Positions 6,023 through 51,839 of a stretch of 64,000 nucleotides of DNA are shown piece by piece. Source of the DNA: Atopsyche davidsoni. Lineage: Eukaryota; Arthropoda; Insecta; Trichoptera; Hydrobiosidae. The notes under the pieces were generated by a model. The model saw nothing but the letters and a program-made list of their open reading frames with translations, was not told the origin of the DNA and ran no database searches. The stretch spans positions 2,892,501 to 2,956,500 of the forward strand of contig JAILWY010000002.1 in NCBI GenBank assembly GCA_022113835.1, written 5' to 3'. The translations under genes were made by a program, and so were the position numbers. Positions within the stretch are counted from its first letter, which is position 1, and every line of letters starts with the position of its first letter.

Positions 6023-8699
6023 AAAAAACATTAAATAATCAATCTTTTTATTACAATTCATCTTGATTTTTAAAATTATATTTGCACACACTATGATCTT
6101 AAACAGACTCCGCTACATGATTTAGAGCAGGGTTATACGGGTTATGTACTTTGCTCCGTCGAACAATAATCAGATATTATGTGATGATGGTTTATTTAAG
6201 TCGGCTACACATGCTGCGACACACATCTGAATGGCCAAGCGTTTCTTTATTTCTTATGGCTTTGTCTGAGTTGACTACAATAAAGAGGACGCTTCTGGTA
6301 AGTTAGTTGCAGCGTGCGTAGTCGGCTCTTTAATACTACACAGTGGACATGGCTTTTGGTCTTATAGCAAGTCAATATGTTCCCGATTTAGGCTGACAGT
6401 TTAGGATATGGAAAGGAGTAAAATTAATAAACACAGTTTTTAAAAAAAATTCATTATATTTTATATTCAAATTACATTTTGCCAACGTTGACAAAAAAGC
6501 AAATGAGGAAATAATAGTAAATTATCAACATAAATAAAATCAAACTCAAGTATTGAAAAAATATAAAATATTTGAAACAGATAAAACGTAGAAACATATG
6601 TAACATAGTTTTCCATGATTTATGAGAAAAATCTCTTCGTAAGTGAGTGATTGGCGGTAAATCGACAGGAATTTAATTGAAGGTCAAACACATTGTCTTC
6701 AAATGGCAGAGACCAGTGGCTACTGTAGTGTAATTGCTATATATAGTGAAACATATAAATTAGATATATTCCTGTGTTATCCATTAAATTATAACAGTAG
6801 AAAGACAAAACAAACAATGAAATGAAATCAATGGATCAATGCATCAATACTTTTGGGTTTCATGTCTGTAGACATATCGAATGTTGATAAATTCACAAAT
6901 AAGTTTGATTACATCATTATTCTTGTCTCGAGAAAAGAGAGGAAGAAGCCAAGCATGTTACACCTGAATAAATGCTGGATAAACTCGGATACTTGGTATT
7001 ATACTTCCCTTGCAGGGGCATTTCTGAAAATTTATTTCTAACATATGGAAATAACTTTATTGAATTTTCAATATAGCAAAGTGTCGTTAATTTTTTATGC
7101 TACAAAATCGTAAAAAATATGGTGCATTTTTTTCTTTGGGTAATAATCTATGAGTTTTAAAACATGAGTTTATGGAGTAGTTGCTTATGAGTAAAGATTT
7201 TATTTTTTGTCTTTTTAAGTTATTTTTTGAAGCATCGCTGACGAAAATCTGACCTATTAGATTTCGACCAGAGCAGAGAGCGCGCAAGGCGATAGTTTTC
7301 AGCCAACAGAAAAAAAGAAGGGGAGGAACCCCGGGGGTGTCTTCCGCCCCGCCAGGCTTCATGAATACAAATACGATTACTTATCTCCGTGCGAGGGCTA
7401 ACTTGAGACATTTCTATGCAAATGGGGCGCGGGTGAGGGTGGAAAAATCCGCACCCTCGCGACTGTCTTCTAGACCAGGGGATGAAGAACAAGGAAGAGG
7501 AAGTCGGACTGAGATATTATAGGTTTTCGTGGCGTTCATCTTGGCAGGTAATAACTGCGTGGGATGGAATATTACGCGGAAACGCCGAAGAGGCCATTAG
7601 GGTTTAAATAATTCAGAGTTTAAATACGCGTTATATGAAGATCTTTAGAAAAGGCTACAACTATTCGTCTTAGCAAAAATCTGTTTAAAATTTTTCTTTC
7701 GTAAAGAATCTGACCAATGAGATTTCTATTTGTATTTTTAGAAAATATCAATGGCAAGGGAAAATTCTTTGTTCAGGTAGATCGACTATGGTGATAGTCC
7801 AAGAAAAATCTGAAAATAAATTTCTTCAGCGTGATCATCACATATAAACGCCTGAAAGTAGTCGTCCAAATATTTATTTATCCATACCATACCTCAAAGG
7901 TATGTAATTGATTTTATAATATTTATATAAATATTTATTTGGTCTACTCCAGAAATTTCCAGTCAAATGGTGAAAAAACATGATTTTACTGAAATATGAG
8001 ATATATTTTAATCGGCTTATTAACATATGTTTGATAATATTGTATTGATAATTTTTACTGTGATAATTGTTAATTTATAATCTAGAATGTAAATGGAATT
8101 TGCACAGTGAAAAAATATATTTATTATTTATAATAAATATCTATTTGAGTTCTGACTTGTGATTGAGCCAATTCTTGCAAAACGTATAGTATAATTGGAT
8201 TTCTAACTAACTGAAATTGAAACGTTGAATTTCGGGTCTTCTTTATAAACTATGATATAAAATATTGATATCGTATTACATGAGTAAATTTATACATTCG
8301 TTGTGGAAGGTACTAGCATGTATTTTTTCAATTATTTATAACATAGTTATCATGGGGCGGCATGAATAAGTTTGCATAATATATAATATACTTTCCTTCC
8401 GTTTTCGCTGCATTGCCTACCTTAGACAGAGTAGTTGTGGGTCAACTTACCCTGACACAACTGACAATCGACCAAGGAATTGCCACCAGGAATTTTTCGA
8501 CAAAATATTTGCCGTTTACAATGCGATTATTACCAAAAAGAATTTGGTGTAAATATTTGTTGCTGCGGGTGTAGGGCGCTTCACAAGCACGGGGTATGAT
8601 TACGATCCACACATGTATAAACGGATATAGTAAAGTAGGGTTGGGCAAAATTAAACCAGCGGATATATACGATGATATTTTGAGTAAAATTTATTTATG
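6023..8699. other. AT-rich intergenic DNA
   Basis: No convincing gene. A GC-rich patch at 7255-7520 includes purine-rich and GC-rich runs. Otherwise the segment is AT-rich, with short related motifs at 7239-7262 and 7708-7725 (both containing ATCTGACC followed by GATTT) that hint at a degenerate repeat. Confidence 0.5.
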
Positions 8700-9025
8700 C
8701 CATTCTGTACCCTGAGCGTGTGTAAAGGATCGGTAATGGAGAAGTGGACTTGGAATTATTGTGGAGGGATGTGCTCTGGAAGTACGAAAGCTTGCTGCAG
8801 AAGGAGTATCAGACCTAAACGCCAGAGCTCTGTAAGGAAAGGATTATATAATAATGCTATTGGAGAGCAGCTATACGTAGATTTCGAATATAAAACAGCG
8901 GCGTAGAAGAACCCGGGGACCCATTACACTATTTTCCCCTTAGAAAACCATGAACACTGGTTCAGGATGAGTAGGTATATGGTCAGTGAAATTCTCAGGA
9001 GAGACACTCGAAGAAGAAGAGTTGA
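8700..9025 (+). mobile_element. Interspersed repeat family A, long copy
   Basis: This sequence recurs about a dozen times in the window on both strands. Landmarks in order are CATTCTGTACCCTGAGCG, AAAGGATCGGTAATGGAG, GTGGACTTGGAATTATTGTG, CTAAACGCCAGAGC, AAGGATTATATAATAATGC, AATATAAAACTGCGGTGTAG, then a 3' module with ATTTTCCCCTTAGAAAACCA and CTGGCTCAGCATGAGTATA, ending near GAGGAGAGGCACTTGATGAA. Copies are truncated at either end, and I find no terminal inverted repeats or obvious pol III boxes. A SINE or non-autonomous element is likely; the superfamily is unknown. Confidence 0.75.
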
Positions 9026-9685: not shown

Positions 9686-10233
9686 GGCAGTTGCTTCTAG
9701 CCTTTTCTAGCCGAAATCGTGTCATTTAATTAATTTAATTGTCACTTTATTTTTCTATGTCGAAAGTTAATTTTTTTTACCAAGTATTAAGAAAACTATA
9801 AATTATATTTACCAATTTTTTATTATTTAATTTACGTCCATTTTTAGGGTAAAATAAAATTTTGAAGATGTTAAAAAATTGGATAAAATGACGACTTTTC
9901 AAAACCAAAGTTTGTTAAAGATTTTTTTTTTTTTAATTTTTAAATTTATAAGACGCACATGGTTTATATTTAATATTTCAATTCCAATTGAAAAAAAGAC
10001 TTTTAAATGTTTAGGATTCTTGGAAAACGTACCGTACGAATCTCCAAATTCCTACACTTTAATCGGAAAAACACATATTTATCATATTAATAGTAAATTT
10101 ATAAGAAATAAAAATATATTGTGTTCGGAAGAAGGGATGTATCATACTTTTTGCATTTAAATATTTTTGATTGGTGCATTCGCAAAACGGACTAGAAAAT
10201 GATTAAAAAAAATCGATTATGGGACCTAAACCC
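9686..10233 (+). mobile_element. TTAA-flanked element family C, copy 1
   Basis: The element starts GGCAGTTGCTTCTAG after TTAA (9682-9685) and ends GGGACCTAAACCC before TTAA (10234-10237), so a TTAA target duplication is preserved. It is 548 bp, AT-rich, and includes a long T-run at about 9920-9940. Three other copies lie at 15.1, 43.9 and 51.2 kb, all in this orientation. TTAA targets are typical of piggyBac and Kolobok DNA transposons. The termini share only GG with each other, so the superfamily is not settled. A 93-codon open frame inside is not preserved in the other copies and is not taken as a gene. Confidence 0.75.
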
Positions 10234-10237
10234 TTAA

Positions 10238-12300: not shown

Positions 12301-12704
12301 GAATTACGAGCCCCTCTCGTCAAGGTCAAGTATCTATTTTATACTAACGCAAAAAAAAAAAAAACGAAATATTTAATAAAAATTACACGTCTCTGTTTTA
12401 TAAATAACAGAGATCAACAGTTACTGACGCATTAGTTTTTTAATATTTAATAATTCTATTTTATTTTAAAAAAAAAAACAACATTTGCTCATCCATTAAA
12501 AAAATTCCTTTATTTTATTTTAAAAAAAGCTGCAATTGATCTCGTTGTATTATATTATACTTCAGCAATTTTTATGTTTGTCATCAGTGAAAGCATCTGA
12601 AATTAATTCAGGAATTAGAAATATACAGAGTATTAGTATGTTAAATACATAGTATTGATAAATCACTAGGCATTTTAATAATTTAATATGTACTATTGTA
12701 TTCT
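12301..12704. other. AT-rich spacer with poly(A) runs
   Basis: Short A-runs at 12350-12364 and 12468-12478, otherwise plain AT-rich sequence. Nothing else seen. Confidence 0.5.
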
Positions 12705-12708
12705 TCAT

Positions 12709-13060
12709 CAAGTGCCTCTTCTCAGAGAAGGTTGGCGACCATTTCACTGAACATATACTCATGCTGAGCCAGTGTTCATGGTTTTCTAAGGGGAAAATAG
12801 TGTAGTGGGTCCCCGGGTTCTTCTACACCGTAGATTTGAAGGAAAAGTTTGCGTATTGCTGCTGTATAGCAATATTATATAATCTTTTCCTTACAAAACT
12901 CTGGCGTTTAGATCTGATACTCCTTCTGCAGGAAGCCACAGAAACCCTTCACAATCATTCCAAGTCCACTACTCCATTACCGATCCTTTACACACGCCTA
13001 AGGTACAGAATGGCAGCTTTGCACAACCAACAGAATGGGGAGAGCGGGGAGGTGTACAAT
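12709..13060 (-). mobile_element. Repeat family A, near full-length minus-strand copy
   Basis: This is the reverse complement of the copy at 8700, from the GAGAGGCACTTGATGAA end (12709) through the TTAGAAAACCATGAACACTGG module, the AAGGATTATATAATA segment and CTAAACGCCAGAG to the CATTCTGTACC start. It continues into CCTCCCCGCTCTCCCCATT (to about 13060). This defines about 50 bp of 5' sequence missing from the 8.7-kb copy but shared with the copy at 27.66 kb. Confidence 0.75.
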
Positions 13061-13835: not shown

Positions 13836-14418
13836 ATTTAAACCATAGGTTCCCAAACTATTTTGTCCCGTAGATCCCTTGTTGAGTTTTCCTGTTTTTC
13901 GTAGACCCCCTGCCTTGTTAATATTGCATTTTTACAAATTCATCAACTTCAAACATATTTTTGACATCTTATATAGAACAACTCACTTTCATAGGGTTTA
14001 CTGTACAATGGATTTAAAACATGTAAAGTTAATTATACCTATATTAATTAAAAACACACAAAATAAAAATATAGGAACATTAAAAAAATCTACATTTTTG
14101 ACAGAGAGTACTTGGTGGAATTCCATTTTAATGTCTTAAATAGAATAAAATACTTGAAATGCCAGCGTGAATGGTTGGCATTATAACGAATTCTATTCGT
14201 CACAAAGTACATAGGTACAATCTGTGTTCGGTGCATTATGACATTTACGGAATGCCTAAATTTCGGTGATGACCTGTTTAAATGGGATCCACTCTCGTAG
14301 ACCTCCATTTACAGTTCGTGGACCCCCGATGTAATTTTTCGCTGTCATAGACCCCTTGCAGGGCGGAATCGACCCCTGGGGGTCGATATTGACCACTTTG
14401 GGAACCAGTGATTTAAAC
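13836..14418. mobile_element. hAT-like short element with 8-bp target duplication
   Basis: The element 13844-14410 (567 bp) begins CATAGGTTCCCAAAC and ends TTTGGGAACCAGTG, the typical imperfect inverted ends of hAT superfamily elements. It is flanked on both sides by the perfect 8-bp direct repeat ATTTAAAC (13836-13843 and 14411-14418). It also has subterminal TAGACCCC-type repeats. No intact transposase frame is present. The internal piece 14088-14128 recurs at 29.15 and 40.02 kb. Confidence 0.88.
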
Positions 14419-15055: not shown

Positions 15056-15558
15056 GCGAAATCGTGTCATTTAATTAATTTAATTGTCACTTTATTTTTC
15101 TATTCCGAAAGTTGATTTTTTTACAGAGTATTGAGAAAACTATATATTATATTTACCAATTTTTTATTATTTAATTAACGTCCATTTTCAGGGTAAAATA
15201 AAATCTTGAAGATGTTGAAAAATTGGATAAAATGTCGACTTTTCAAAACCAATGTTTAATCTTTTATTTATTTCAATTTATATTTAATCTTTTAATTCCA
15301 ATTGAAAAAAAGACTTTTAAATGTTTAGGACTCTTAGAACAGGGACATGACGAATCTCCGAATTCCTACACTTCAATCGGAAAAACACATATTTATCATA
15401 TTAAAAGTAAATTTACAAGAAATAAAAAAAATATTTTGTTCAGAAAAAGGGATGTATCAAACTTTTTGCATTTAAATTTTGTCGATTGGTGCAGTCGATT
15501 TTTCGCAAAACGGACCAGAAAATTATTAAAAAAAAACTCGAGTATGGGACTTCGACCC
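15056..15558 (+). mobile_element. TTAA-flanked element family C, copy 2 (5' truncated)
   Basis: It matches copy 1 from AAATCGTGTCATTTAATTAA to the terminal GGGACTTCGACCC, followed by TTAA at 15559-15562. The first ~40 bp including GGCAGTTGC are missing, and the preceding sequence is unrelated. Confidence 0.72.
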
Positions 15559-15562
15559 TTAA

Positions 15563-17360
15563 AGGTTGAGAAGCGCGGGTTTGAAGAAGGAGGCTTTAGT
15601 GTATGTGGGGCGGGCACTGCAGGCAGATTCCGTGAGGAGACATTATAGGGGCGGGGGAGGAGGTGGACTTGCTTGTATGAAATTAATTTCAGCCCTGATT
15701 ACATTCGGCGGACAGGGGGAGGCGTGGGGGATTTTTGGACAAGACTCAATTGGGAATAGATTCGCAGTAGGCCTCGACGGGGCAAGACGGACGGGGGTTG
15801 AAGGGGGATGGCCGAGGGGGTGGGGGCAATTAGGCAGAATATTCACTAAGGAGCTCCTCTCTAATTCATTACGAGATGTGCCGAATGAAATGACTATTTA
15901 TGGGCTTCGTTTGCCATTAATGTGCCGCCGAACAGTCTAGAATCTAATCTAATCTGTAAACTAATACGTTACAATCATACAAAACAAATAAATTGTTTCA
16001 AATTCAATCTCAAAATATCCATTTTTTTAGTAAAAAATATTCGTGTTATTAATAAAATATTACGAATATAATTTATTGATGTATTCAAATTATACAAACA
16101 CTGTAACAAACATTTGTTTATTAAGGGATAAATAATGAAAACTCAAATAATAAATAATGTAATCCTTAAACAATGAAAAAAATACAGACAACCATATTTA
16201 AAATTTTTATCTGATATGTTTTATATTGAAATATTCTGATATTTGCTAATTACTTGCTTAATTATATGAATTATACGTTCAATTATTTTTAACATGCTAC
16301 GATAAAACTACATATTTTGGATTAAAATTTACAATTATTTTATAGGAGTCATCATTCAAAGTACTCATAAATTTTAGTAAGATCTTTTATCTTATATTAA
16401 ATACATATTATGAATAAATTGACACTATAATTATATCTTGTTTATAGTAAAATAATGTATCGTAGACTTAAAAACTACTACTATATTTTATTCTACAGTA
16501 CTGGAATCTAAATTGCACTCACGAATGCTTGTGACGTCATGTCGTACTTTATTATTTTCAATGGATGTATTTTCATAACTGAATAGTGTCTACGAGTCAC
16601 AGATTTGGTAAAAAAGAGTAATGTAAATTATTTAATGAATTTTCATTAAAATATCGCAAGTACTGTGCAAATATTAATACCTTGTACAGATAAACCTTCA
16701 CTAGTAAAATTTACTTCGTAAATTCAAAGTTTCGGTATTTTTTTTTTCATGAAGGTTTGAATCGTATTGTTTTCATACCGGAAGTCGTTTTTTGATCTTA
16801 CATCAAGCTGGGGGTGTATCGTAAGTCAGTGCCGGCGGGTTGAGCAAGTCAACTGTAGCTGGAAGAGTCGTTAATTTACCTATCACAACAAATCTGAAAT
16901 CCGGCGGGCGAGGACAAAGGCACGCCGGGGGGCGGGGAGGGGGCTCAGGGGGGCTCAGGGGGGCACAGGGGGGGCTCAGGGGGGAGTATCGCAAGTTATC
17001 TGGGGGCCGGGGGCTGACTTCTCCTTAACGACAACTTGCAAGACCTTATCGAAGTTGGGGAGCGCCCCTCCTCCCCCGCCAGACAATGGACCGCCGAGGG
17101 TAGCGCAAGGATTTTTTGTCGGAGGCTTCGTTGGATTGCGGGACTATTTTTAAATTATATGTAATGTAAACATATTCAAGATCGTTGAGTTTAATCTGAG
17201 TACAAAAAAATCACGTAAAATATATATTTTTTAAATTTTTGATATAAAAATATATAAAAATATGCAAATTTCGCACATAAATGTATGTGCATAAAAAATT
17301 GTAAACCTAATTTCTCATCGCAGATCTATTAGGAAAATATATTTCGATACAACACAAATA
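15563..17360. other. GC-rich and G-rich islands around an AT-rich core
   Basis: The region 15570-15850 is G-rich, with GGGGGAGG-type runs that leave open frames in two registers but no recognisable protein. The core 15930-16800 is plain AT-rich. The block 16830-17110 is GC-rich, with a G-run minisatellite described separately. Nothing gene-like was found. Confidence 0.5.
16922..16986. repeat. G-rich minisatellite (CTCAGGGGGG unit)
   Basis: About five 10- to 11-bp units of the form (C/A)(T/A)CAGGGGGG in tandem, with single-base variation. The closely spaced G6 runs would favour quadruplex formation on the plus strand. Confidence 0.8.
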
Positions 17361-17369
17361 TAATTAATG

Positions 17370-17580
17370 ATAAGGGTAATAGTTTTGGCATGACTAGTTT
17401 TTACCAACAGACTTGACAAACCATCCAGTTTTGTTCTGCATCTGATGATGATCAAGTCTGTTGGTCGAAACTAGTCATGCTAAAACTATAATAAACTCAA
17501 AGTGAAGGAAGTATAAAAAGTTACCCATATCATTAATAAAAAAATGGATCTTCGCTAATCAAATGCCTTGTCCTCTAACA
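17370..17580 (+). mobile_element. Hammerhead-bearing foldback element (family B), copy 1
   Basis: An imperfect palindrome. TAGTTTTGGCATGACTAGTTT on the left pairs with AAACTAGTCATGCTAAAACTA on the right, and ACCAACAGACTTGA pairs with TCAAGTCTGTTGGT inside it. The right flank carries the family landmarks AAACTCAAAGTGAAG and AATCAAATGCCTTGTCC. The hammerhead motif is in the right arm only; the left arm lacks the CUGAUGA core. Confidence 0.75.
17438..17480 (+). ncRNA. Minimal type I hammerhead ribozyme motif, GUC cleavage site
   Basis: CTGATGA lies at 17442-17448. A short stem II follows (GATC at the 5' side with GGTC at 17463-17466, one G-U pair), then GAAA at 17467-17470. C-TA-G then gives a two-base-pair stem III, followed by the canonical cleavage triplet GUC ending at 17476. 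Stem I is GCAT (17438-17441) with ATGC (17477-17480), 4 bp. One spare base lies between CUGAUGA and stem II, as I recall for Penelope-like element hammerheads. Stem II is weak, so activity is uncertain. Confidence 0.6.
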
Positions 17581-17624
17581 TGAAAAAATATAATTATATT
17601 GTACTTAAAATATAAAATTGCGCT

Positions 17625-21031: not shown

Positions 21032-21108
21032 GTATTTTTGTTGTTCCGATATTTTTTTTAATATGCTTCGAGATTCGCTAAAACTAATAACTAAAAATAA
21101 TAATATAC

Positions 21109-21202
21109 ATACATTTGCAGTTCAAGTTCTATTCTGTAATAGAACTTGAACTGCAAATGTATAGTAACTGTAAATAGTTACAAAACTGTTTTTGTAACTA
21201 TT
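21109..21202. repeat. Two tandem perfect hairpins with CTGT loops
   Basis: Hairpin 1 pairs 21109-21133 with 21138-21162, 25 perfect base pairs around a CTGT loop. Hairpin 2 pairs 21173-21185 with 21190-21202, 13 perfect base pairs, also around CTGT. They are separated by 10 bases. No match to other repeats in the window was noticed. Confidence 0.88.
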
Positions 21203-21615: not shown

Positions 21616-21744
21616 TGAGCTGTAACTTCAGTGTTACTTTCAATAATAAAAATAATATTTAAGTACACTTTAATCTCAACTTTTAATATTTAATAATTTT
21701 TTAAAATAAATTAAAATATTATATACATTGGTACTATTGAGTTA

Positions 21745-22012
21745 TAATGATAAAAGTACCTTTGTATTTTGTCTTCACTTTGAGTTTATTAAAATTATTT
21801 GCATTACTAGTTTCGACCCAATACACTGGGACATCATCAGATGTATAACTAATCTTTAGTTATGCATCCGATGATAACTCAGTGTTTTGGGTCGAAACTA
21901 GTAATGCAAATACTTTTAATTAACTCAAAGTGAGAACAAAATACAGAGGTACTTTTATAATAATGGATCTTCACGAATCAAATGCCTTGTCCCTCAACAA
22001 GGTACTATTGAG
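21745..22012. mobile_element. Hammerhead foldback element (family B), copy 2
   Basis: A palindrome whose arms run from TAAAAGTACCTTTGTATTTT through AACTCAAAG or its inverse to GCATTACTAGTTTCGACCCA, centred near 21853. It ends with AATCAAATGCCTTGTCC and a CTCAACAAG tail. Each arm carries a hammerhead-like motif, head to head. Both motifs here have core or stem changes. The plus-strand one (21861-21908) has CCGATGA instead of CTGATGA. The minus-strand one (21801-21848) keeps the core but has a mismatch in stem II. Confidence 0.8.
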
Positions 22013-22439
22013 GTTTCAAAGTAAAGTAGAGGTTAATTTAAAAACCACCTAAAACCATCAAAACTAAAAGCAGTGAATTTTATGTAATAATCAAAAATAA
22101 TTTATTATTCTCCGATTACTAAATATTTTTTTTAAAAGTAAGATCATTTCTATAACAATGATTTAAGCTGTAACGCCACATTGAAAATATATAATTTATT
22201 ATCATTACTTTCTGATTTGACATATCAACATATGTCTAATATTTAAAAACACTTAACGCTTGTATATCTTTAGCTGTGCTATTATAAAAATAATTTAATT
22301 TTTTATTAGTTCAATAATAAAAATAAAATAATTGATTTAACCGAAATCGGTTAAGGATGACCTTGACCCACAATCAAATTCAGCACTGCCTTGATAAATA
22401 CAATGTACTTATATAAAACGTTTCCAGCATTTGAAACAA

Positions 22440-22498
22440 ATATATATATATATTTTTTTTTATATCTATATATATAGATATATATATATATATATATT
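22440..22498. repeat. AT microsatellite
   Basis: A (TA)n run interrupted by TTTTTTTT and CTATATATATAGATATA. Its counterpart in the right arm at 38850-38948 is longer. Confidence 0.9.
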
Positions 22499-22499
22499 A

Positions 22500-22618
22500 A
22501 GAACCCGAAGACGCACTAGACTATTTTCCTTAAGAATACCATGAACACTGGCTCAGCATAAATACATACACAGTGAGATGGTCACCAACATCCTCTGCGG
22601 AGAAGCACCCAAAGAAGA

Positions 22619-22653
<35 letters not shown>

Positions 22654-22835
22654 TTTTTGAAAGGAAATAATTATATAATACTGCTATTGGGCACCAGCAA
22701 TACGTATACTTTTCCTTCGAATATAAAACTGCGGTGTAGAAAGACTCGGGGATCCAATACACTATTTTCCCCTTAGAAAATACTGGCTCAGCATGAGTGA
22801 AATGGTCGCCAACCTCCTCTGAGGAGAGGCATTTG

Positions 22836-23399: not shown

Positions 23400-23770
23400 T
23401 GTCATTGAGATCCATCGGCGTGGAAGCCTGCGAGATGAATCGGAGATCTCTTCAGAGGAGCTCCGCGGGCGGGGGTGGTCCGCGCGTCTCGGGGTTGGGA
23501 AATTAATATTCCCTGAGTGCTGGCGACACCGGAGCCTCCTTTGCCAACTTTCCCTCCTCTTGTCTTGGGGTGGTTTAGCGAGTGCCGAGTGTACCGCACT
23601 CGATGGGGAGACTTCAAAGTTCTCATTTCTGCTCCATTTATGCGGAGGACTGATCTTGGGGCGCGTCTACACCTGACAGGTGCACAGTAGTCGACACGCT
23701 CTCCTCATTCCTCCCCGAATGCCTGATGCTTATGGTGAAAGCGCTTATCACCCCCTTAACGACCCAACGA
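23400..23770. other. GC-rich complex island
   Basis: About 350 bp of balanced to GC-rich unique sequence with no repeat match. No convincing coding frame. Confidence 0.45.
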
Positions 23771-23840
23771 ATAAAATTTATTTATCAAACAACGCGACGA
23801 GCCGTTTCCGAGGTTTTAATATCATTTTTTTTTTGTTCTT

Positions 23841-24046
23841 GTTGAGGGACAAGGCGTTTGATTCGTGATAAAAGTACCTTTGTATTTTGTCTTCACTTTG
23901 AGTTTATTAAAAAAAATTGCATTACTAGGTGCATCTGGTGTTAAGTTATGCATCTGATGATGACCCAGTGTATTGGGTCGAAACTAGTAATGCAAATAAT
24001 TTTAATAAACTCAAAGTGAAGACAAAATACAAAGGTACTTTTATCA
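23841..24046 (+). mobile_element. Hammerhead foldback element (family B), copy 3
   Basis: It begins GTTGAGGGACAAGGCGTTTG and continues with the TAAAAGTACCTTTGTATTTT arm. The centre is deleted, so only the right arm retains a complete motif. The right arm then runs out through AAACTCAAAGTGAAG to GGTACTTTTATC. Confidence 0.8.
23949..23994 (+). ncRNA. Type I hammerhead ribozyme motif with intact core
   Basis: Core CTGATGA lies at 23954-23960 and GAAA at 23980-23983. Stem II is GACCCA (23962-23967) with TGGGTC (23974-23979), six perfect pairs around GTGTAT. Stem III is A-C with G-U around TA, giving the cleavage triplet GUA ending at 23989. Stem I pairs TGCAT (23949-23953) with ATGCA (23990-23994), five pairs. 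One spare base precedes stem II. The stem III segment ACTAGT is self-complementary, so two transcripts could form a continuous 6-bp stem III. Hammerheads of this minimal form are known from Penelope-like retroelements. Confidence 0.82.
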
Positions 24047-25683
24047 TTATATTTTAAAATCATGTTTAAATTTATCGGCAGTGGAAATATGAAGTGATTA
24101 AAAATATGGAATCGGTTAAACTCAATATAAGCAAGAGCTTCGATGCAATCAGATACAGTTACACACTTGGTCGGCCAGTTACGTCTCCAGCATTTGGTTT
24201 GCTCTATATGTTTACATTTGAGCGTATAAATCGACGCCCGGTGTGATCGGACCTCAACCGATGGGCTGATGAAAAGACCATCCGACCTGGACGGGTCGTG
24301 ATGGAAGAAATTAAATGTTGCGGTGGGCGCGACCGCAGCCTGCCTGAGAAGCCTTCGCTTGCTCCACAAGGAATATTCAGAACCGCCCCCGCCCTTCGCA
24401 CAGGGAATCCCTAATCATCCCCGTCCCCACCCCCTGCTTTATGGGGGCGTTTTTTGTGGGGTCGGAGGTCGCGTATTGTCTCAACGGTTTTTAGTTAATA
24501 AGGACTTAATCACAAACGTTTTTAAACGTAGGAATATATATATATATATATATATAAAAAAATTGATCAAAGCTTTTGTTCTGTTTCAATCTCTGTATAA
24601 AGTTTCAGCACTATTCAACTGTGTATTTTTTATCTGGATAAAGCTCTTAGAGTCTATTCTGGTATCACGTCGCTTGTTGGAAAATACCGAAGCTCGCCAA
24701 ATGGGTTTTATTACAAAGAAAATATGTGGTGACGTAAAAATATCCACAATGGTCGTTGGCAGGTTATTTCCAGCAATTGTGTGGCTGTCAATTAACGACC
24801 GGACGGTTGCGTAAGCCATTCTCTCGAAGTAGAAAATATACCAGCTAATTAATACTTTATATAAAACAGCTGATAGATTTAATTTGAGGACTGTATTAAA
24901 AAATCATTGCGTTGTTTTAGAATTTAATTTCTGCGAGTGTTTTAACAAAACAGCGTTGAATAATAATCTTATATGTGATATAAAAAAATGTTGTTTATTT
25001 TCAGCGTAATGAACATTGTCAAGCTAGTTATAATTCTTAATTATTGCTATCGGAAAATTTGTTACAAAATTTATAACGATGTCAAAATTTACATCGAAAC
25101 GATATATGAGTGTTAATTGTAATGGGGTTTTGCCCAAAAGACGTTGTTTCAAATCGCATTAGTGATTTTTTTAACGGTAAAGATCAAGCTTGTTAGACTG
25201 AAAATACGATTTGATATTATGCAGTACTAAAATAAATCAATATACATACCATAAAAAATGAAAAAAAATATGTTAAAATTAAAAACGTATATAAAGCTAT
25301 TTTATTGAATTATAAAAAAAATATTAGTCGCAGTCATAGATTGATATTCCAAAAGACTTCTCGGCTCGCTCGCTTTCCGAGGGGTGTTACACAGAAGCGA
25401 GGGGTGGTAAGACGCAGGGGGCGGTAGAAGGGGCCCCTCGAGTGGGGAAGGGTAGGGCAGGGGAAGGCAGGGAAAGGCAGGGAAGGGCAGGGGAGGGCAG
25501 GGGAGGGCACCCTCTCAATAAATCTGCCACGCGATACAAGCATGCCATATATTTACTCACGGCTCGCGCATAAAGCCATTGCAGTTTTCGCGATTCCATG
25601 CGTCATATATTTATTATGCACCATGTCTCGGGACATTGATAATAAAACAAATAACGAATTTATGGAAATATGGAATAAATTTC
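24047..25683. other. AT-rich intergenic DNA with two GC-rich islands
   Basis: A mixed island at 24180-24470 has long open frames on both strands (142 and 163 codons) but no recognisable domain, and the two overlap antiparallel. A (TA)n run lies at 24535-24556. The region 24820-25330 is plain AT-rich. The island 25355-25520 contains the minisatellite described next. Confidence 0.45.
25447..25509. repeat. G-rich minisatellite, GGCAGGGGAA-type units
   Basis: About six tandem 10-bp units (AGGGCAGGGG / AAGGCAGGGA) in register. Confidence 0.88.
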
Positions 25684-25957
25684 CTCCCCGCTCACCCTGT
25701 GAAGGATCGGTAATGGAGTAGTGGACTTGGAATTATTGTGGAGGGATGTGCTCTGAAAGTACGTGATATTGCTTATGTATCAGATCTAAACGCCAGAGCC
25801 TTACGGAAAGGATTATATAAAAATACTATTGGGCAGCAGCAATATGCAATACTGCGGTGTAGAAGGAATCACTACTCTATTTTCCCTTTAAAAAAACATG
25901 AAGACTTGTTCAGCATGAGTAAATGCTCAGTGAAATGAGAAGAGGAACTTGATAATG
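25684..25957 (+). mobile_element. Repeat family A copy
   Basis: It runs from CCTCCCCGCTCACCCTG, skips the CATTCTGTACC segment, and continues through GGATCGGTAATGGAGTAGTG, the CTAAACGCCAGAG and TATTGGGCAGCAGCAATATG landmarks to the 3' module. It has small internal deletions. Confidence 0.72.
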
Positions 25958-27661: not shown

Positions 27662-27925
27662 ATTTCCCCGCTCTCCCCTTTCTGTTGCTTGTGCATGACT
27701 GCCATTCTGTACCCTGAGCGTGTGTAAAGGATCGGTAATGGAGTAGTGGACTTGGAATGATTGTGGAAGGATGTGAAGGATGTGTTTCTGTAGCTTGCTG
27801 CACAAGGAGTATCCGATCTAAACGCTAGTGCTTTGTATGGAAAGGATTATATAATAATGCTATTGGGCAGCAGCTTAGAAAACCATGATCACTGGTTCAG
27901 CATGAGTATACGCTCAGTGTAATTT
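27662..27925 (+). mobile_element. Repeat family A copy with 5' sequence
   Basis: It starts TTTCCCCGCTCTCCCCTTT, then CATTCTGTACCCTGAGCGTG, and runs to a shortened 3' module. Together with the 12.7-kb copy it fixes the 5' portion of the family. Confidence 0.75.
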
Positions 27926-29059
27926 TAAATTGAAAAGCTTTTTTCATAATTGCGAATAATTTAGATCTGTTGACTGTTGCAGTAGGTATATTTTTTTAAA
28001 TTAAATAATATATTTAAAAGGTTGCCGTCTCCCTCGCGGTGTCTCCAGCACACATGGCCCACAGCACCCGCAGCTGGAGATGTCTCCAAGTCTGCTGGAT
28101 ATTTATTGAGGCAATTGTGTACCGAATTGATGACACTGTAGGAGGCACGGCGTCCACGTGCGGTCAGGCTATAAGGAATGATATAACCATTCACTTTATG
28201 TTCTACAACTGGGCGTACCCATTCCCCATGGGCTCATGGCAGTCATAGGTTCCTGCTGGGATATATTGCACAGTAATTTCACGTATCCGAACATCGGTAC
28301 AATCAGATGCACTGCCCATGAAAATTATATTGAAAATCTCTTTGAGTAAAAATTATTTTATTTTTTACTTAAAATAATTTTATTAATGCAGAAGCATGGG
28401 TAAAAAAAATAATACCCTCAACCCTCAAGTGTGTTAAAATTAAAAAAATATATATTACGATATAAATCACAGGTGGTATTGAAAATATACTTTTGCAATA
28501 CTCATCGTGCCCAAAAATTTTAAGTTATTGTCTTGTAGTTATTGAGGATCGAGGGGGTGTTTGTAGTGTCTAGGAAGGGTGGAGGGTGGTGCAAGGGGTG
28601 GTAACGAAAGACCAGTCCAGCGGAAGGCTCTGCATTACTTTATCGTTGTCATAAACATGTCGCATTACTCCAGATTTACAGACGGAGCGCCTCATTTTAA
28701 AGCGATGTTACTCCTTCAACGAGCACTCACTAAAGCTTACATTAAATCAGATTTATCACTTGAGCTTAAGATTGATAATTTCACTGTACTGGAATGATTC
28801 TATATTTTATTTATCTGTAATTTTATTTTGTATTATTAAAAAAAAAAAAAAATACTATCTACATCATAAATATGTAACTTTGAACAAATTTATACAAAAG
28901 GTATTTTACAGATCACCTCATGTATAGGTATTTAATAATATAATTTATGAATTCATATTAGTAAATATTTTTATTAAGATTACCAAGATATTTATTAATA
29001 GGTATTTTTATGAAAAAAAAATAATACGCTTGGAATTATATACTTTATTTTAATAGTTA
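27926..29059. other. Intergenic DNA, mixed composition
   Basis: The block 28015-28260 is balanced in composition and non-repetitive. The block 28550-28720 is mildly GC-rich. The remainder is AT-rich, with an A-run at 28840-28853. Nothing gene-like. Confidence 0.45.
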
Positions 29060-29061
29060 CA

Positions 29062-29192
29062 ATATTTTTGAGTAAAATACTTGAGTGATTTTCCCCGTGT
29101 TCGTTTTTATTTGTGACCGGTTCACTCAAGTATTTTACTCAAAAATATCAAAATGGAATTCCACCAAGTACTCTCTGTCAAAAATATTGAAT
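29062..29192. repeat. Hairpin repeat related to sequences at 14.1 and 40.0 kb
   Basis: ATATTTTTGAGTAAAATACT at about 29066-29085 pairs with its inverse at 29131-29150, leaving a loop that contains CGTTTTTATTTGTGACCGG. The next ~35 bases (AAAATGGAATTCCACCAAGT, then ACTCTCTGTCAAAAA) recur at 40017-40050 and, inverted, inside the hAT-like element at 14088-14128. The loop recurs inverted at 39957-39980. Confidence 0.7.
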
Positions 29193-32100
29193 TTCATAAT
29201 AGTTACAAGTAATTAAATAATGGAGATGTGATCTTATTGTTGTAAGAAAGTTATTAAACTGAATGTATTTAAACTATGGATAGTTGTGAAAGAGAAAAAA
29301 TGTTTTAAATAAACAAATTTTTAAATATTTAAACTTTTACTTACAATGTAAAATGTAAAATAAGCTGCAATTTTAAAACCACTAAGAGATTTTTTAAGTT
29401 CAATATACACTGAGTTAAATTAATAAAGCATTTATTTAGCTAGTAAAGTATTTTATATAAAAGTTTGTCTAAGAAATATGTTTTTGATCTATATAAAATA
29501 CTTTTTAAATTAATTTTTAGTTAAAAAGACATTGTAGGTATAACAGCAAAAGACATAAAAATTCAAATAAAAAAATATCACTTCTTACTTATTGACAAGC
29601 ACCAATAATAAAGATTTTATAATAATTTTTTTAAAGCACATATATGCACTATTGTAAGATTAATGAATATGATAAAGTAAATTTAAAATACGTACTTTAT
29701 ATAAATAATAAATTCACACACAAAGATTTAAACACTTGAAAATGTACTGTGCCAATACAATAGAAATACTTTCTTAAAAGAAGGTTTCTTTATGAGTTTA
29801 AAAAATTAAAAATTGAAAAAAAAAAGCACAGACATGGCACCCAAACAGATCGAAAATTTAGTGAATACTGATCTGAAACAGGCAGGGGCTCTGGGAGCGG
29901 AGGCTGCTGATCCGGTTTGTGGTCCGCAGATGTGCCCAGCATCCGTCGATTCCGGAATTGTCGGTTTGTGGACGGGAGTCCCGTTTTCAGGAGTGCGCCG
30001 AGCCCGGGACGACTCAGGGGTGGGAACCGGTTCCGGGATGACACACTCTGGACCGTGAAAGAGTTCAAACTAGAAATATATTTATAGAAAATCGTTAATA
30101 ACCGCGCCGTTATTGTGAGATCCAGATAGCTAACGGATGCTGGCCTGTTTGAATGCCAACCGGTTTTGCGTGTCCGGTCCATTTTTGTTTGTTCTTGAGC
30201 GGGCAGCTGGATTTTTAGAATTTAGGGTGGATTTGTTATTTTTCTGGTTAAAGTTCTGTAAGCGAGTTTGATTGACTCTACATATTTGTTTTTGAATAAT
30301 CAAAAAATTCTGGTTTAGTTTTTAAGATGTTTAATTGAGGAAGTTTCAATTGACATCTTCAAAATGATGTATTATATAGATTTTTAAAAGATTTTATTTT
30401 TTTGCTATCCAAAAACTAGTATCATAGAATAAATCAGTTTAGAAGTATTGTTTTAGTTGTGAGTGAGGCTAATAACAAGATTATATTATTTAAGATTAAT
30501 ATCAAATTTTTTTTAAACAATATTTCGTTTAACTCCAAATTTACGATTTTTTTATTTATTTATTAGAGCAAATCCCATAATTTTTAATTAAATATGAGCA
30601 AAATAACTATTTGAAAATTTAAAAAATATAAAATTTTAACAAATTTGTACCTAAAATAATTTCTACAATATATCAATTCAAAAAGTGATATATAACTTTG
30701 AGTAAAATATTTCATATAATTTTATTTGTCTCACAAACAAATGGGCAAGTATTTTATCGGTTTGTTTCTAGACTAAATTAATATTTAAGAATAAAATTTA
30801 TAACGAAAATTATTAAAACAATAAAAAAATATTACATTACATTTAAAAATAATATTGAAATATTTTTTAATGTTTTTTTTATTTATTTACATTAAGAGAC
30901 AAATAAAAATAACAAACAAAAACAACTACGACCACGGTATTTTAGAAAATGCTTAAAAAAAAAATTCCAAATCTTATTATTTATTTAAAATATATGAAAA
31001 ATTTGTATTTAATTTTACAAATATTTCATGTATTTTTTAAAAGCCAAATAAAGGCCTAATAATTTTTTTAAAATAAATTATTATTTCTCAAAACGCATCT
31101 CTAGTCGAGTAGCAAAACTAAATTGCGGCCACTTTACAGACAACAGATGGCACTGTGCACCTTATTTTAAGATGGATTCCTAGTATTGTAACAGAATTAT
31201 TTATATTATATTTCAAAATAAAGTAATTAGTGAAAATTAAATAATATCCATTGAAATAACATAATAAATTGTAAAATGTCCAAAAATTTATTTTTAAATA
31301 AAAAAATTATTTCACTCAACCAGAATCAGGTTTTTATTCAAAATCACTCGTTAGTTTGTTCATTCACATTTTTTTTATACAAACCAGACCACAAAAATAG
31401 CAAAGATACTCCATTTAATTTATGGTAAATAGTTTCGATTTTTACTATTCTTTATTGGCTATTGAATTTTTATCTACACAAATAATTTTTTTTTTTTTTA
31501 TACTAACATGTTTTATATTTTTACTTCGAAGGGTTCATCAATCTAGGGAAGTTTATTTTATTTGAAAGCTTTATTTATAATTTATACGAATATATTTATA
31601 TGTATGTATTCACATACAAACTAGAATTGTTATTTGTTAAAAAAATTAAAAGCTGTTGAAGAAGAAATTAATAAAATGTTTATACAAAAAGTTGAACATT
31701 TGATTATTTGCATTTTGTTTATGGCAAATAAAATACTTGCAGAGAAATAGTGTGATAATTATTTTTTATGATGTTTTATCAGAACATTATTAATAGTTTT
31801 TTGATGATCGACACATATATCTAAATATTTTAAGCTAATTATTTAATTAATTTTTAAAAAAAGCTACAATCAATTTGTTAGGCTGTATTATTTTTTCAAA
31901 TGTATTATTACTGCAAAAGATTAAGTATTGTAAAAAATATGTATACTTTAATATTTTAGCCCTTGCTATAAATACTAGCAGTTTGCAATTGAAATTATTT
32001 TTTAATAACAAATTTAACTATTCTATGATGGAAATACTGTATTATGATTTGTTTTTTTTAAGACATACATAGTTACTAATTATTGAAATATTCATAAGCA

Positions 32101-36255: not shown

Positions 36256-38653
36256 TTAGGGTGTCCCTTATATGACCAAAAAATTTTTTTTTTCAAATTT
36301 CCAAATGGGTACCCTCTACTTTTTTTAGTAATGCTATAAGAGTCTTAAATATAAAATTTCATCTTTCTAGCATAATTGCAACCAGTGCCGACCGAGCTTC
36401 AAAGTTTAGTAAAAAACGTGTTTTGTCTTGATATTTCGGTCTGGTATAAAATCATTATAAATGCAATAAATTAAGTAAATAATAGTAAAAATTCAATTAG
36501 ATGAACATTAATCTTTAATCAAAAACATAAAGTAATAACAATCAGCCAGGGTAACTTTTTTTTAGAGTTGTTTTTTTACAGTCCGGATACAATTTTCTAT
36601 GTTCCTGGACACAGCGCAGCAAGAACTGTTTTTGTTCTTCTTCAGCCGTGATAAGTCCGTTAAAATCTTGCATCATTTTAACAGCCCTTTCAGCAGTATC
36701 ATTCACAATTCTCAAATAACAATTTAAATATATCACAAAAAGTCAATTTAACTTACTAAACAACCTTTGAGGCAGTTCTTCCTTTGACGGGTCATAGCGT
36801 TTGCTAAAATCTGAGGTTTTGTCCCGGTTGAAGTTGGCAATCATTTTCTTCTTAGTTTGGTTATCAACTTCATCATCAAACAGTGATAGAATAACTGTCT
36901 CTTCACATAAATACCACAAGTGATGGCTAAACTTGCTTATAGAAGCATTAGAAATTGTTGCGTCAACTTTTTCGTACTCTTTTAACATCTTCAAGAAGCG
37001 CAAATCTTGGTTAGGTGCTTTGATCGCCACTGTACATTCGAGCCAAGGTTTAACATACAACACCACGACAAATAAGCAAACATCTTGTAGAGCCTTTTTG
37101 TCCTTCGCAGTTATTCTGCATTGTGACTGAAGTGAACAAAGAATAGATCGCTCTCGCCATCCAGCGAGCCTGATGCATTGCTCCGGGGGGCCTTAGTTTT
37201 AATTTTTCCTCTGTGTCTCCTCCCAAAAATATTACGCACAGTTCGACCAATTCGCGGTAGTCATCTCTTACATAACCTTTGTTTAATTCTGCCTTATAAA
37301 ATATTAACAAAGCTTGAATGTCTGTCTCGGCAACACGTTGTTTTACGAAATTAAGAGATGGTTCAATGTTACTAGAGTCGATGTTTTTCCAATTTTCTCT
37401 GAACTTTTTAAACATTGGAGTATCTGGGCTACTAGTAATTTACTTAATTTTGCTTTCAAAGACAGCTTTTAGGACCAATTCATAAACATGATGACGACAG
37501 ACGAGCAGCAATTCTCTTCCTAAAGTTTCTCCAAAATAGCACAAGCTCCATTGAAACGGCCAGTATTGAAAGCTGTTGTGTCGCAGCACATTATTTGTAC
37601 TTTATCGTGAAGGTTCTAGTCAAAGAGAGCTGTTGAGACAGCCTTAGCTTGATGTTTTTCAGAAGAATGTTCTAGTTTTGGCACTGCAAGAAGCTGTTCC
37701 TTATCGTCAAACGAAGCAATAACTGGCAAGCGTTCTTCTTTAGAACTTCGTACATCCAACCTGGGTAATAGTGTTCCATCCCAATGGACTGTGACTACGT
37801 CGGGTACATTGTTTTGGAAGTCAGATTTTAATGCTTCTGCCCTTGATTTTCTAGTTTCAGCAGCTAGTGATTCTCTTTGTCTTACAACCCTTTCCTCTTC
37901 TTCCATTCGTCGTTGTTTAGATCTCTCTTCTTTTTCCGACAATTTTTTATCAACACCACCTAAGCATCCTGGTCGATCTGGCTCTCTCTGTTTCATTAAA
38001 AATAATTTATCTTACTCTATTTTCATTCTCTCAAAAGCATCAGCATGTGCAATATCAAACAAATTATCAAGATCAATTTTGAAATTGTTCTCACGGCTCT
38101 TGAACGTAACCTGAGTTTTCTTACAATTTTTTTTGCAACTCTCTCCAAACATGATATAAATCAACAAGTTTCTTCACGCAGTTAGGATATGCCCTTGTTG
38201 GAATTCTTGTTTTTTCCCAATATATGATGCACTCCCTAATCACAAGATTTGCACTTTCACTAACAATCAGTTTAACCTCACGAATATTGTAAAATAGGAC
38301 CGAGGGAATTTGTCGATTAGATGGTAATTTTGCACCATTTATTTGATATCTAGGCAAACCGATAAGGAAATTATTTTGTTTATCACTCCGTAATTCCACC
38401 GACATGTTAACGCACTAAACAATGGAGCACTACTAATCTCAAAAATCACGTATGAAATGACAAATAAAACATGCAGTTACAAGTCACAGCGCAGTACTTA
38501 CGCAACTTGTATGGACAAGTTAAAATCGCAAGTCGGCACGGGTTACCGTTTATAAATCGAACTAATATTTTTTTCTAGACAATATAGGGTTATTACTAAA
38601 CTTTTAAGAAGGTACGCGTAAAAAAATATTGAACTTGAATTTTAAGGGACACC

Positions 38654-38657: not shown

Positions 38658-38721
<64 letters not shown>

Positions 38722-38724
<3 letters not shown>

Positions 38725-38842
38725 TCTTCTTTGGGTGCTTCTCCGCAGAGGATGTTGGTGACCATCTCACTGTGTATGTATTTATGCTGAGCCAGTGTTC
38801 ATGGTATTCTTAAGGAAAATAGTCTAGTGCGTCTTCGGGTTC

Positions 38843-38847
<5 letters not shown>
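38722..38847 (-). mobile_element. Repeat family A, 3' module
   Basis: Reverse complement of the copy at 22500-22620, including its private change CAGCATAAATACATACACAG. It is flanked on both sides by (TA)n. Confidence 0.75.
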
Positions 38848-38909
<62 letters not shown>

Positions 38910-39379
38910 ATATATATAGATATAAATATATATATATATATATATATTTGTTTCAACTGCTGGAAACGTTTTATATAAGTACATTGTATTTATCAAGGCA
39001 GTGCTGAATTTGATTGTGGGTCAAGGTCATCCTTAACCGATTTCGGTTAAATCAATTATTTTATTTTTATTATTGAACTAATAAAAAATTAAATTATTTT
39101 TATAAAACCACATCTAAAGATATCCAAGCGTTTAGTGTTTTTAAATATTAGACATATGTTGATATGTCAAATCAGAAAGTAATGATAATAAATTATATAT
39201 TTTCAATGTGGCGTTACAGCTTGAATCATTGTTATAGAAATGATCTTACTTTTAAAAAAAATTTCATAATCGGAGAAAAATAAATTATTTTTGATTATTA
39301 CATAAAATTCACTGCTTTTAGTTTTGATGGTTTTAGGTGGTTTTTAAATTAACCTCTACTTTACTTTGAAACCTCAATA

Positions 39380-39645
39380 GTACCTTGTTGAGGGACAAGG
39401 CATTTGATTCGTGAAGATCCATTATTATAAAAGTATCTCTGTATTTTGTTCTCACTTTGAGTTAATTAAAAGTATTTGCATTACTAGTTTCGACCCAAAA
39501 CACTGAGTTATCATCGGATGCATAACTAAAGTTTAGTTATGCATCTGATGATGACCCAGTGTATTGGGTCGAAACTAGTAATGCAAATAATTTTAATAAA
39601 CTCAAAGTGAAGACAAAATACAAAGGTACTTTTATCATTATAACA
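39380..39645. mobile_element. Hammerhead foldback element (family B), copy 4
   Basis: It runs from TTGTTGAGGGACAAGGCATT to GGTACTTTTATCATTATA, with a long palindrome centred near 39535. The left arm holds a minus-strand motif (39475-39528) with CCGATGA in place of the core. The right arm holds an intact plus-strand hammerhead. Confidence 0.82.
39540..39585 (+). ncRNA. Type I hammerhead ribozyme motif with intact core
   Basis: CTGATGA is at 39545-39551. Stem II is GACCCA (39553-39558) with TGGGTC (39565-39570) and a GTGTAT loop. GAAA is at 39571-39574, and the cleavage triplet GUA ends at 39580. Stem I pairs TGCAT (39540-39544) with ATGCA (39581-39585). The motif is identical over its whole length to the copy at 23949-23994, although the surrounding element differs in structure. 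Confidence 0.82.
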
Positions 39646-39879
39646 CAATAGTACCAATGTATATAATATTTTAATTTATTTTAAAAAATTATTAAATATT
39701 TAAAGTTGAGATAAAGTGTGCTTAAATATTATTTTTATTATATATATTATTTAAATTTAATACTGTGATGGATTCTTTAGGGCGGTCCTTTTGCTTTGAA
39801 TTATGATTTAAAATTTATATTGATAAGTATTTATCAACGGAGCAGTTTTTATAATATGACATATACCAGAGTAATTATT

Positions 39880-40055
39880 AGAGTGATATATAATATTTCA
39901 TATAACCTTTCACGTTGGCATTATCAAACACTCTGTTTGGTGAAAGGTTGGCGAAACCGGTCACAAATAAAAACGACATGTGGAAAATCACTCAAGTATT
40001 TTACTCAAAAATATTAAAATGGAATTCTACCAAGTACTCTCTGTCAAAAATGATA
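39880..40055. repeat. Copy of the hairpin repeat seen at 29.1 kb
   Basis: It contains CCGGTCACAAATAAAAACGA, the CACTCAAGTATTTTACTCAA segment and AAAATGGAATTCTACCAAGT. The upstream CTTTCACGTTGGCATT resembles the inverse of the hAT-like element interior near 14160-14175, suggesting that all three derive from one hAT family. Confidence 0.6.
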
Positions 40056-41139: not shown

Positions 41140-41420
41140 ATATGTCTATTTTTTGGATTGGACGTCAATCAGATGCGTATTTATTACCCATTACGGGTTT
41201 ATTATATTATTAATATTGGTTGGCCTGGGCACATTGGTTCATATGTAGAGTATGATTGTTAAAAATTCTCGATAAACGGAAGTGATTCGTTAGTACAAGG
41301 GTTAGTACACCGGCCATGTAAGCCAGGGGATGTGGGTTCAAATCCCACACAAATCACGATGATATTTTTTTGATGAGAGTTTCTTTAATCATCTTCTATG
41401 TATGAACTAATGTGCCTAAT
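41140..41420 (+). mobile_element. tRNA-Thr-like SINE (family E)
   Basis: A leader block (GGATTGGACGTCAATCAGAT) is followed by a tRNA-like head at about 41285-41362. This has GTTAGTACACCGGCC, an anticodon-loop-like CATGTAA and the B box GGTTCAAATCC (41335-41345), flanked by GTGG and CCCAC that can pair as a T stem. The match is closest to tRNA-Thr(TGT), but the acceptor stem does not pair, so it is a SINE head rather than a gene. The 3' part contains ATCACGATGATATTTTT and GAGAGTTTCTTTAATCAT, shared with the other copies. Confidence 0.72.
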
Positions 41421-43895: not shown

Positions 43896-44443
43896 GGCAG
43901 TTGCTTCCAGCTTTTAAATTGCCTCTGGTGTAAATCGTGTCATTTAATTAATTTAATTGTCACTTTATTTTTCTATGTCGAAAGTTTATTTTTTTACAGA
44001 GTATTGAGACAACTCTAAATATTTAAATATTTATCTATTTTTTATTATTTAATTCACGTCCATTTTCAGGGTAAAATAAAATCTTGAAGATGATAAAAAA
44101 TTGGATAAAATGATGACTTTTCAAAACCAAAGTTTGTTAAAAAAAATTTTTTTTTAATTTTTAAAATAATAAATCGCAGAGGGTTTATATTTAATCTTTT
44201 AATTCCAGTTAAAAAAAGATTGTTAAATGTTTAGGACTCTTGGAAAATGTACCGGACGAATCTCCAAATTCCTACACTTTAATCGGAAAAACACATATTT
44301 ATCATATTAATAGTAAATGTATGAGAAATAAAAATATATTTATTCGGAAGAAGGGATGTATCAAACTTTTTGCAATTACATTTTTTGATTGGTGCATTGG
44401 ACTAGAATATGACCAAAAAAACTCGATTATGGGACATAGACCC
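43896..44443 (+). mobile_element. TTAA-flanked element family C, copy 3
   Basis: It starts GGCAGTTGCTTCCAG after TTAA (43892-43895) and ends GGGACATAGACCC before GTAA (44444-44447), a single-base change from TTAA. It is the same length class as copies 1 and 4. Confidence 0.75.
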
Positions 44444-48139: not shown

Positions 48140-48395
48140 CGACAACTCGTTCGATATGAAATTTATATTCATGTCTGATAATTAAAGAAACTCTGAGAAA
48201 AATATAATCGTGATTTGTGTGGGATTTGAACCTACATACCCAAGCTTACATAACCGGTGCATTACCAATTATACCAACGAGTTTTTTTAATCAATTTTCA
48301 ATATTTTAAAAAATGTACTTAATCATTATCAATCAATGAAACCTGTATAGGCAAAATTCCTGTGAGACGGTCTTCACAAAAATCAATTTTTTTTT
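48140..48395 (-). mobile_element. tRNA-derived SINE (family E), minus strand, with leader
   Basis: Read on the minus strand, a leader with GTGAAGACCGTCTCACAGGA and CCTATACAGGTTTCATTGAT leads to TAATGATTAAGTACATTTTT. It then enters a tRNA-like head: TCGTTGGTATAATTGGTAAT (A-box region), ACCGGTTATGTAAGC, GGTTCAAATCC (B box, 48235-48225). It ends AATCACGATTATATTTTTCT and AGAGTTTCTTTAAT. The same leader is present at 58140-58210, which shows it belongs to the family. Confidence 0.75.
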
Positions 48396-51786: not shown

Positions 51787-51839
51787 TTAAGACATTTTTC
51801 ATAATTCAAGAAATCACTGTGTAAATAAGGGTATGTATT

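Follow-up and report, generated by a model that had tools for sequence, protein, structure and literature searches.

The hammerhead-type motif at positions 23949-23994 (+) of the window, by which we mean the whole 64,000-nucleotide stretch of Atopsyche davidsoni DNA analyzed here, is real. Inspection of the sequence identified a complete set of hammerhead core residues, and the preliminary description of this locus was correct in its coordinates, in the order of the elements (CTGATGA, GAAA, a GUA triplet, and stems I and II), and in the stem lengths of 5 bp for stem I (23949-23953 with 23990-23994) and 6 bp for stem II (23962-23967 with 23974-23979). CTGATGA occupies positions 23954-23960, GAAA 23980-23983, and CTAG 23984-23987, followed by U16.1 at 23988 and A17 at 23989, after which cleavage is predicted. 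The motif had been called intact, which holds for the core residues but not for the junction of A9 and stem II, where one base (T23961, i.e., U23961 of the RNA) sits before the first stem II pair. This inserted U is common to six out of six arms aligned from the four insertions described below, these being all of the eight arms except the partner arms of A and D, which carry no recognizable core. Canonical hammerheads require stem II to adjoin A9 directly; on its sequence the motif is thus best classed as a hammerhead type with an insertion and not as a canonical member. Together A9, the inserted U, and G10.1 form an ATG, which in insertion A starts 30 nt upstream of the predicted cut and opens a frame with a stop after 19 codons (hand count); as a guess, formation of this ATG may explain the inserted U. 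A type III hammerhead with the left arm of insertion A as its stem III was rejected on inspection, as there is no UH between that strand and any stem I.

Searches of the window with a generic type I descriptor, which allows one base between A9 and stem II, returned exactly three loci, all on the + strand and starting at 17442, 23954, and 39545. In 100 dinucleotide shuffles the same descriptor gave one match in total, and none with a stem II of at least 6 bp and a stem I of at least 5 bp, while the pattern GCATCTGATGA-N12-22-TCGAAACTAGTNATGC matched three times in the window and never in 100 shuffles. The descriptor gives stem II lengths of 7, 7, and 6 for A, C, and D, the closing G-U being counted for A and C. 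The hammerhead of insertion C (39540-39585, +; predicted cut after 39580) is identical to that of A. A fourth locus at 21800-21845 (-), with CTGATGA to GAAA at 21840-21811, lies outside the three strict descriptor loci and keeps the core with one mismatch each in stems I and II. The minimal type I order of CUGANGA, GAAA, A15.1-U16.1, and an NUH triplet is found in A, C, and D and also in B, with stems I and II of 5 and 6 bp in A and C and of 4 and 6 bp in D. The diverged hammerhead of D (17438-17480, +; GUC triplet; predicted cut after 17476) retains all core bases and the NUH triplet, and its stem II, though with changed pairs, still has 6 bp, while the D arm is 81/100 identical to that of A. 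If the gap in D is placed in the loop and not where MAFFT places it, its stem II would show one C-G to A-U and one C-G to U-G change, which is our reading of the alignment and not a test. No hammerhead model of Rfam matched the whole window at the gathering threshold, nor did any match positions 23700-24250 at E<=10, and both results count against the motif. The microRNA-precursor matches in the latter search were far under their gathering scores and derive from the palindrome. Two more palindromes, at 21106-21166 and 58196-58319, contain no hammerhead by the type I descriptor.

Self-comparison of the window and alignment of the loci showed that each hammerhead copy sits in a pair of head-to-head arms, here termed insertions A to D. 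The arms measure about 100 bp when complete (103 positions compared), one arm of each pair bears a tail of 27-38 bp, and 11-12-bp target-site duplications are present at the outer edges of the pairs. The preliminary description had missed this host element, with its head-to-head palindrome, duplications, tail, and degenerate second hammerhead, as well as the other three copies and the inserted U. Insertion A (23814-24063) is composed of a tail-less, pLTR-like arm with the hammerhead (23944-24051, +), an inverted tail-bearing arm without a hammerhead core, which starts inside stem III at CTAG (23866-23928, -), a tail of 27 bp with its first part missing (23839-23865, -), and target-site duplications at 23814-23825 and 24052-24063 which match at 11/12 positions. 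Insertion B (21730-22012) has, besides the hammerhead on the - strand, a degenerate one in the tail-bearing arm (21863-21908, +; U4 to C, G10.1 to A), a 38-bp tail ATGGATCTTCACGAATCAAATGCCTTGTCCCTCAACAA (21963-22000, +), and the exact target-site duplications GGTACTATTGAG (21730-21741 and 22001-22012). The whole pair of insertion C with its tail lies at 39373-39655 (-), with target-site duplications at 39373-39384 and 39644-39655 (11/12), and that of insertion D at 17356-17596 (+), with a 37-bp tail at 17544-17580 and the exact target-site duplications AAATATAATTA at 17356-17366 and 17586-17596. The tail reads ATGGATCTTCACGAATCAAATGCCTTGTCCCTCAACA or similar, with 38 bp in B, 37 bp in D, and 27 bp remaining in A, and is followed by an A-rich run in A (on the - strand) and in D. 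The stem-loop of the tail is only partial; its 3' strand in B is made up in part of the duplication, and the fold predicted for D lacks this stem-loop.

The significance of the duplications was judged by the fraction of random window positions reaching the observed length, with 2000 draws for each locus. When one mismatch was allowed these values were 0.0105 (A), 0.0015 (B), 0.0095 (C), and 0.003 (D); for exact matches the lengths were 6 in A (0.395), 12 in B (0.003), 10 in C (0.0085), and 11 in D (0.003). Target-site duplications are therefore present at all four loci of this family, in A and C with one mismatch, and these four represent three independent insertions (A, B/C, and D), because B and C are two copies of one insertion within a larger duplicated segment, with 97.3% identity over 857 bp and a further matching piece to 22654 / 38689. 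The inverted copies of this approximately 1-kb segment (21643-22654 and 38689-39741; 97% identical) also contain AT microsatellites and a dispersed repeat, and the segment may represent a segmental duplication or else a mobile unit of larger size. The second hammerhead of B and C, on the arm with the tail, shows CCGATGA and lacks the first pair of stem II, and the second arm of D, which is the tail-less one, has lost both core blocks. A viroid-like reading with working hammerheads on both strands finds no support in the window, as the second arm is degenerate or coreless in each of A, B, C, and D.

A second family, with another arm and a tail that likewise begins ATGGA, occurs at three loci (29062-29184, 39952-40052, and, on the - strand, about 14080-14200). 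The first of these is insertion E (29051-29208, +), with head-to-head arms shorter than those of the first family, the tail ATGGAATTCC... on one arm only, and exact 12-bp target-site duplications TAATAGTTACAA at 29051-29062 and 29197-29208 (null 0.0033). The second is a single arm with tail (39952-40052, +) and carries the 3' half of a hammerhead (GAAACCGGTC, with a palindromic CCGG), in which no CUGAUGA was seen; while the first family has a hammerhead in the pLTR, the second thus has only this half, in one arm. By translation the tails of the two families could encode similar N-termini, MDLHESNALSLNK and MEFYQVLSVKN, which would fit the arrangement of a pLTR with a tail reaching into the ORF given in the relevant part of a published account (PMC3846280). 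The reading frame of the D tail has a stop at codon 5.

The specific hammerhead patterns gave no match in viral contigs, and a looser pattern picked out 11 viral contigs in which the stems were unconvincing by eye (visual inspection only). A 17-base word of the tail is contained in 11 viral contigs, and in these no matching sequence was present beyond the word, short extensions, and stretches of 13-19 bases; the best match, 25 bases at 96% (E 7e-6), was taken as chance. A phage collection searched with the B locus and a plasmid collection searched with one protein of the window gave no match. Elsewhere in the window a repeat of about 530 bp is present in four copies with 84-88% identity (9713-10237, 15058-15562, 43932-44447, and 51259-51790), and a dispersed repeat of about 250-300 bp is found at 8698-8992, 12701-13015, 25698-25937, 27665-27923, and 51926-52157 and as further fragments, with roughly 74-89% identity. 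Positions 49860-50683 hold the remnant of a mariner-type transposase in two overlapping frames (Transposase_1 above the cut-off, DDE_3 below it). A tRNA-like match of 51 bits at 41284-41356, the sequence of which is partly repeated at 48177-48259, possibly represents a tRNA-derived SINE. ORFs without a Pfam match lie at 36743-37439 and 37616-38011 (-); a protein search with the ORF 37050-37439 (-) gave 46 matches, of which 12 name an organism (10 from the spider Araneus, 1 from the moth Eumeta, and 1 from the brine shrimp Artemia).

The two-pair stem III of the preliminary description did not survive analysis of the fold, in that the second pair would close a 2-nt loop, which is impossible in the energy model; stem III of the monomer consists of A15.1-U16.1 alone, capped by the palindromic tetraloop CUAG. 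As had been claimed, ACTAGT (23983-23988) is self-complementary throughout, and the palindromic stem III loop does favor dimers, with -30.2 kcal/mol for a dimer with stems I and III both in trans against -11.6 kcal/mol for the monomer, computed without stem III. The minimum-energy fold of the dimer (-38.6 kcal/mol) differs from the hammerhead dimer, and in the 61-nt minimum-energy fold, which keeps stems I and II, core residues are occupied by non-native pairs, the inserted U pairing with G12 and CUG with UAG. The tandem setting that had been imagined for dimerization is absent here; the adjoining copy is inverted, and a transcript thus forms a long hairpin instead of tandem units. The 196-nt fold of A is a long hairpin of -103.8 kcal/mol (z -18.2), and the hairpins of the whole pairs reach -145.9 (B), -145.1 (C), and -76.7 kcal/mol (D). 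The long hairpin should compete strongly with the ribozyme. Palindromic stem III loops have already been published as the basis of such hammerhead dimers, as noted in a section of PMC6466107 citing Lunse et al. (2017), and for axolotl a single stem III pair under a palindromic tetraloop is given in the part of PMC7229834 that concerns it.

The anatomy of the inverted pairs, with their arms, tail, and duplications, matches that published for Penelope-like elements (PLEs), and for this reason we judge them to be PLE-derived pLTR pairs. The motif is likely to represent a minimal type I hammerhead belonging to a PLE and residing in non-autonomous head-to-head pLTR pairs in which one pLTR carries a PLE tail; the PLE-like home and the minimal type I form proposed in the preliminary description are both supported. 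Head-to-head arms with a tail of 30-40 bp are present in B, C, and D and, with shorter arms, in E of the second family, and the partly deleted tail of A, at 27 bp, is under the 30-40 bp of PLE tails. A motif search of stop-free stretches of at least 40 residues found no PLE reverse transcriptase or GIY-YIG gene in the window; two matches to YxDD, in stretches of 64 and 54 residues, had no reverse transcriptase family match in Pfam. A PLE reverse transcriptase encoded elsewhere in the genome would have copied a pLTR-containing RNA into a staggered, mostly AT-rich cut, with one side presumably copied from the pLTR end onward and the opposite side from the tail end. A tandem transcript of the PLE would allow the hammerhead to dimerize via its palindromic stem III and cleave after GUA or GUC, perhaps assisted by the PLE protein, and in inverted pairs, if transcribed across the whole pair, the opposite arm would pair with the ribozyme and leave the copies mostly silent. 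A 2020 review (PMC7761336) describes the function of the hammerhead in PLEs as a mystery. As a class the motif is ordinary; its mild interest lies in the extra U, the inverted arrangement, and the divergence of the arms. A PLE-hosted hammerhead is to be expected; more informative is the difference between the mirror halves.

Counting substitutions only, the tail-less arms of A and C, which belong to separate insertions, show 0/103 differences, the two arms of C 12/103 (Fisher 0.00035), and the two arms of A 5/66 as compared with 0/66 for the tail-less arms of A and C on the same columns (0.058). In B the two arms are separated by 11/100 substitutions and in D by 11/63. Because the tail-less arms of C and A have accumulated almost no changes since copying, the arm difference in C must for the most part predate its insertion. 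Between the tail-bearing arms of A and C there are 11/66 differences, and that of A sides with the tail-less type at four of the five diagnostic columns it covers, so A and C do not derive from a single composite. In a tree of the arms the tail-bearing arms of B and C were grouped with a support of 0.999, and the tail-less ones with only 0.59. The comparison covers three independent insertions, with gene conversion between tail-less arms as a possible influence. On this pattern of substitutions it is improbable that one arm of C served as the template for the other at insertion, and those of B/C seem to have been about 10% different already on arrival. Unless the template was already composite, the arm difference in C thus weighs against self-priming on a single template, and it fits either two templates used at the same staggered cut or sequential insertion. 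The way in which PLEs produce inverted pLTRs is unsettled, and the Discussion of PMC3846280 prefers self-priming. As a tentative proposal, the PLE reverse transcriptase may extend both cut strands simultaneously on two different RNA templates, with the cDNAs meeting head to head, one having started at the pLTR end and the other at the tail end. Such two-sided integration, if true, would count against an origin of inverted pLTRs in PLEs by self-priming (snap-back copying), since snap-back arms would be identical at birth.

Sequential insertion, i.e., a young tail-less pLTR next to an older tail-bearing pLTR as the result of two events, concerns the manner in which the pair arose and can hold together with the PLE explanation. 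It draws on the same counts, with the tail-less arms of A and C 0/103 apart and their partners differing from them by 5/66 and 12/103, and on an element known as PAc (Poseidon of Anolis carolinensis), which is considered capable of nicking its own pLTR (PMC11167929). However, the duplications lie at the outer edges of the pairs, and at the junctions of A to E no third duplication was detected, as no repeat with the outer flanks rose above chance (longest exact match 6, smallest null 0.231). A second event would moreover need to have hit the same junction at each locus, and we consider this scenario unlikely. As records of integration such short pairs are simple, having clear target-site duplications and arms that can be told apart, and genome-wide statistics of arm pairing could separate self-priming, two templates, and sequential insertion.

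The remaining alternatives concern the nature of the element itself. Long inverted repeats dominate every locus (z -18.2 in A) and a mariner-type transposase is present in the window, as would suit a foldback or MITE-type DNA transposon with a hammerhead-like sequence fortuitously located in its long inverted repeats. This is nevertheless improbable, because the ends are not inverted copies of each other (in each of A to E the tail is confined to one end), the tails of A and D lead into an A-rich run, and the duplications are of 11-12 bp. The target-site duplication of mariner is TA. Equally improbable is a metazoan retrozyme, a small non-autonomous retroelement spreading through hammerhead-cut circular RNA. 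The small size, the type I hammerhead, the AT-richness, and the target-site duplications are shared with retrozymes, for which a possible dependence on PLEs is raised in portions of PMC7229834 and PMC8969392, whereas those described have canonical hammerheads and consist of direct tandem repeats of about 150-400 bp, and here we have inverted singles with a minimal motif; Tandem Repeats Finder detected no array at any hammerhead or pair locus. Finally, a chance look-alike in repetitive DNA with no ribozyme function, as might be supposed from the lack of an Rfam match, the inserted U, the favored non-native folds, and the sequestration of the copies in hairpins, is very improbable given a frequency above that in shuffles and the retention of core and stem II in D, the arm of which is 81% identical to A.

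The putative PLE-derived pair has its closest counterparts in four published systems, compared here on the parts of each account that describe the relevant features. Minimal PLE hammerheads (PMC7761336, PMC6155905, PMC6466107) are alike in the core, the near-absent stem III, the palindromic loop, the dimer logic, and the location in retroelement repeats, and differ in that here a U is inserted between A9 and stem II and the neighbors are inverted, not tandem. For metazoan retrozymes the corresponding sections of PMC7229834 give a type I hammerhead as here, with one stem III pair and a palindromic tetraloop in axolotl Amex1, in direct tandem repeats yielding circular RNA. For PAc, the pertinent sections of PMC11167929 report that the tail (30-40 bp) is the sequence between two reverse-transcription start sites, that both DNA strands are cut and extended, that targets are AT-rich, that the hammerhead lies across the ORF start with its cut 26 bp beyond the ATG, and that cleavage took place only with protein added. 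The insertions resemble PAc in the hammerhead near a start codon, the tail, and the AT-rich target, and its two-strand cutting and extension would fit the pairs seen here, with the difference that PAc is autonomous, tandem, and studied in vitro and here there are non-coding pairs only. The Adineta vaga Penelope copies treated in PMC3846280 include one in which an inverted pLTR lies next to direct pLTRs and the duplication is of 9 bp, others with 8- and 10-bp duplications or none, and an optional 31-bp tail on one inverted pLTR. With these the pairs of the window have in common the head-to-head pLTRs, the optional one-sided tail, the short duplication, and the palindrome at the junction, whereas the arms here are of about 103 bp compared with pLTRs of 181-218 bp, the duplications are of 11-12 and not 8-10 bp, no ORF was seen between or beside the arms, and the arms of one insertion differ, at 5/66 to 11/63 positions.
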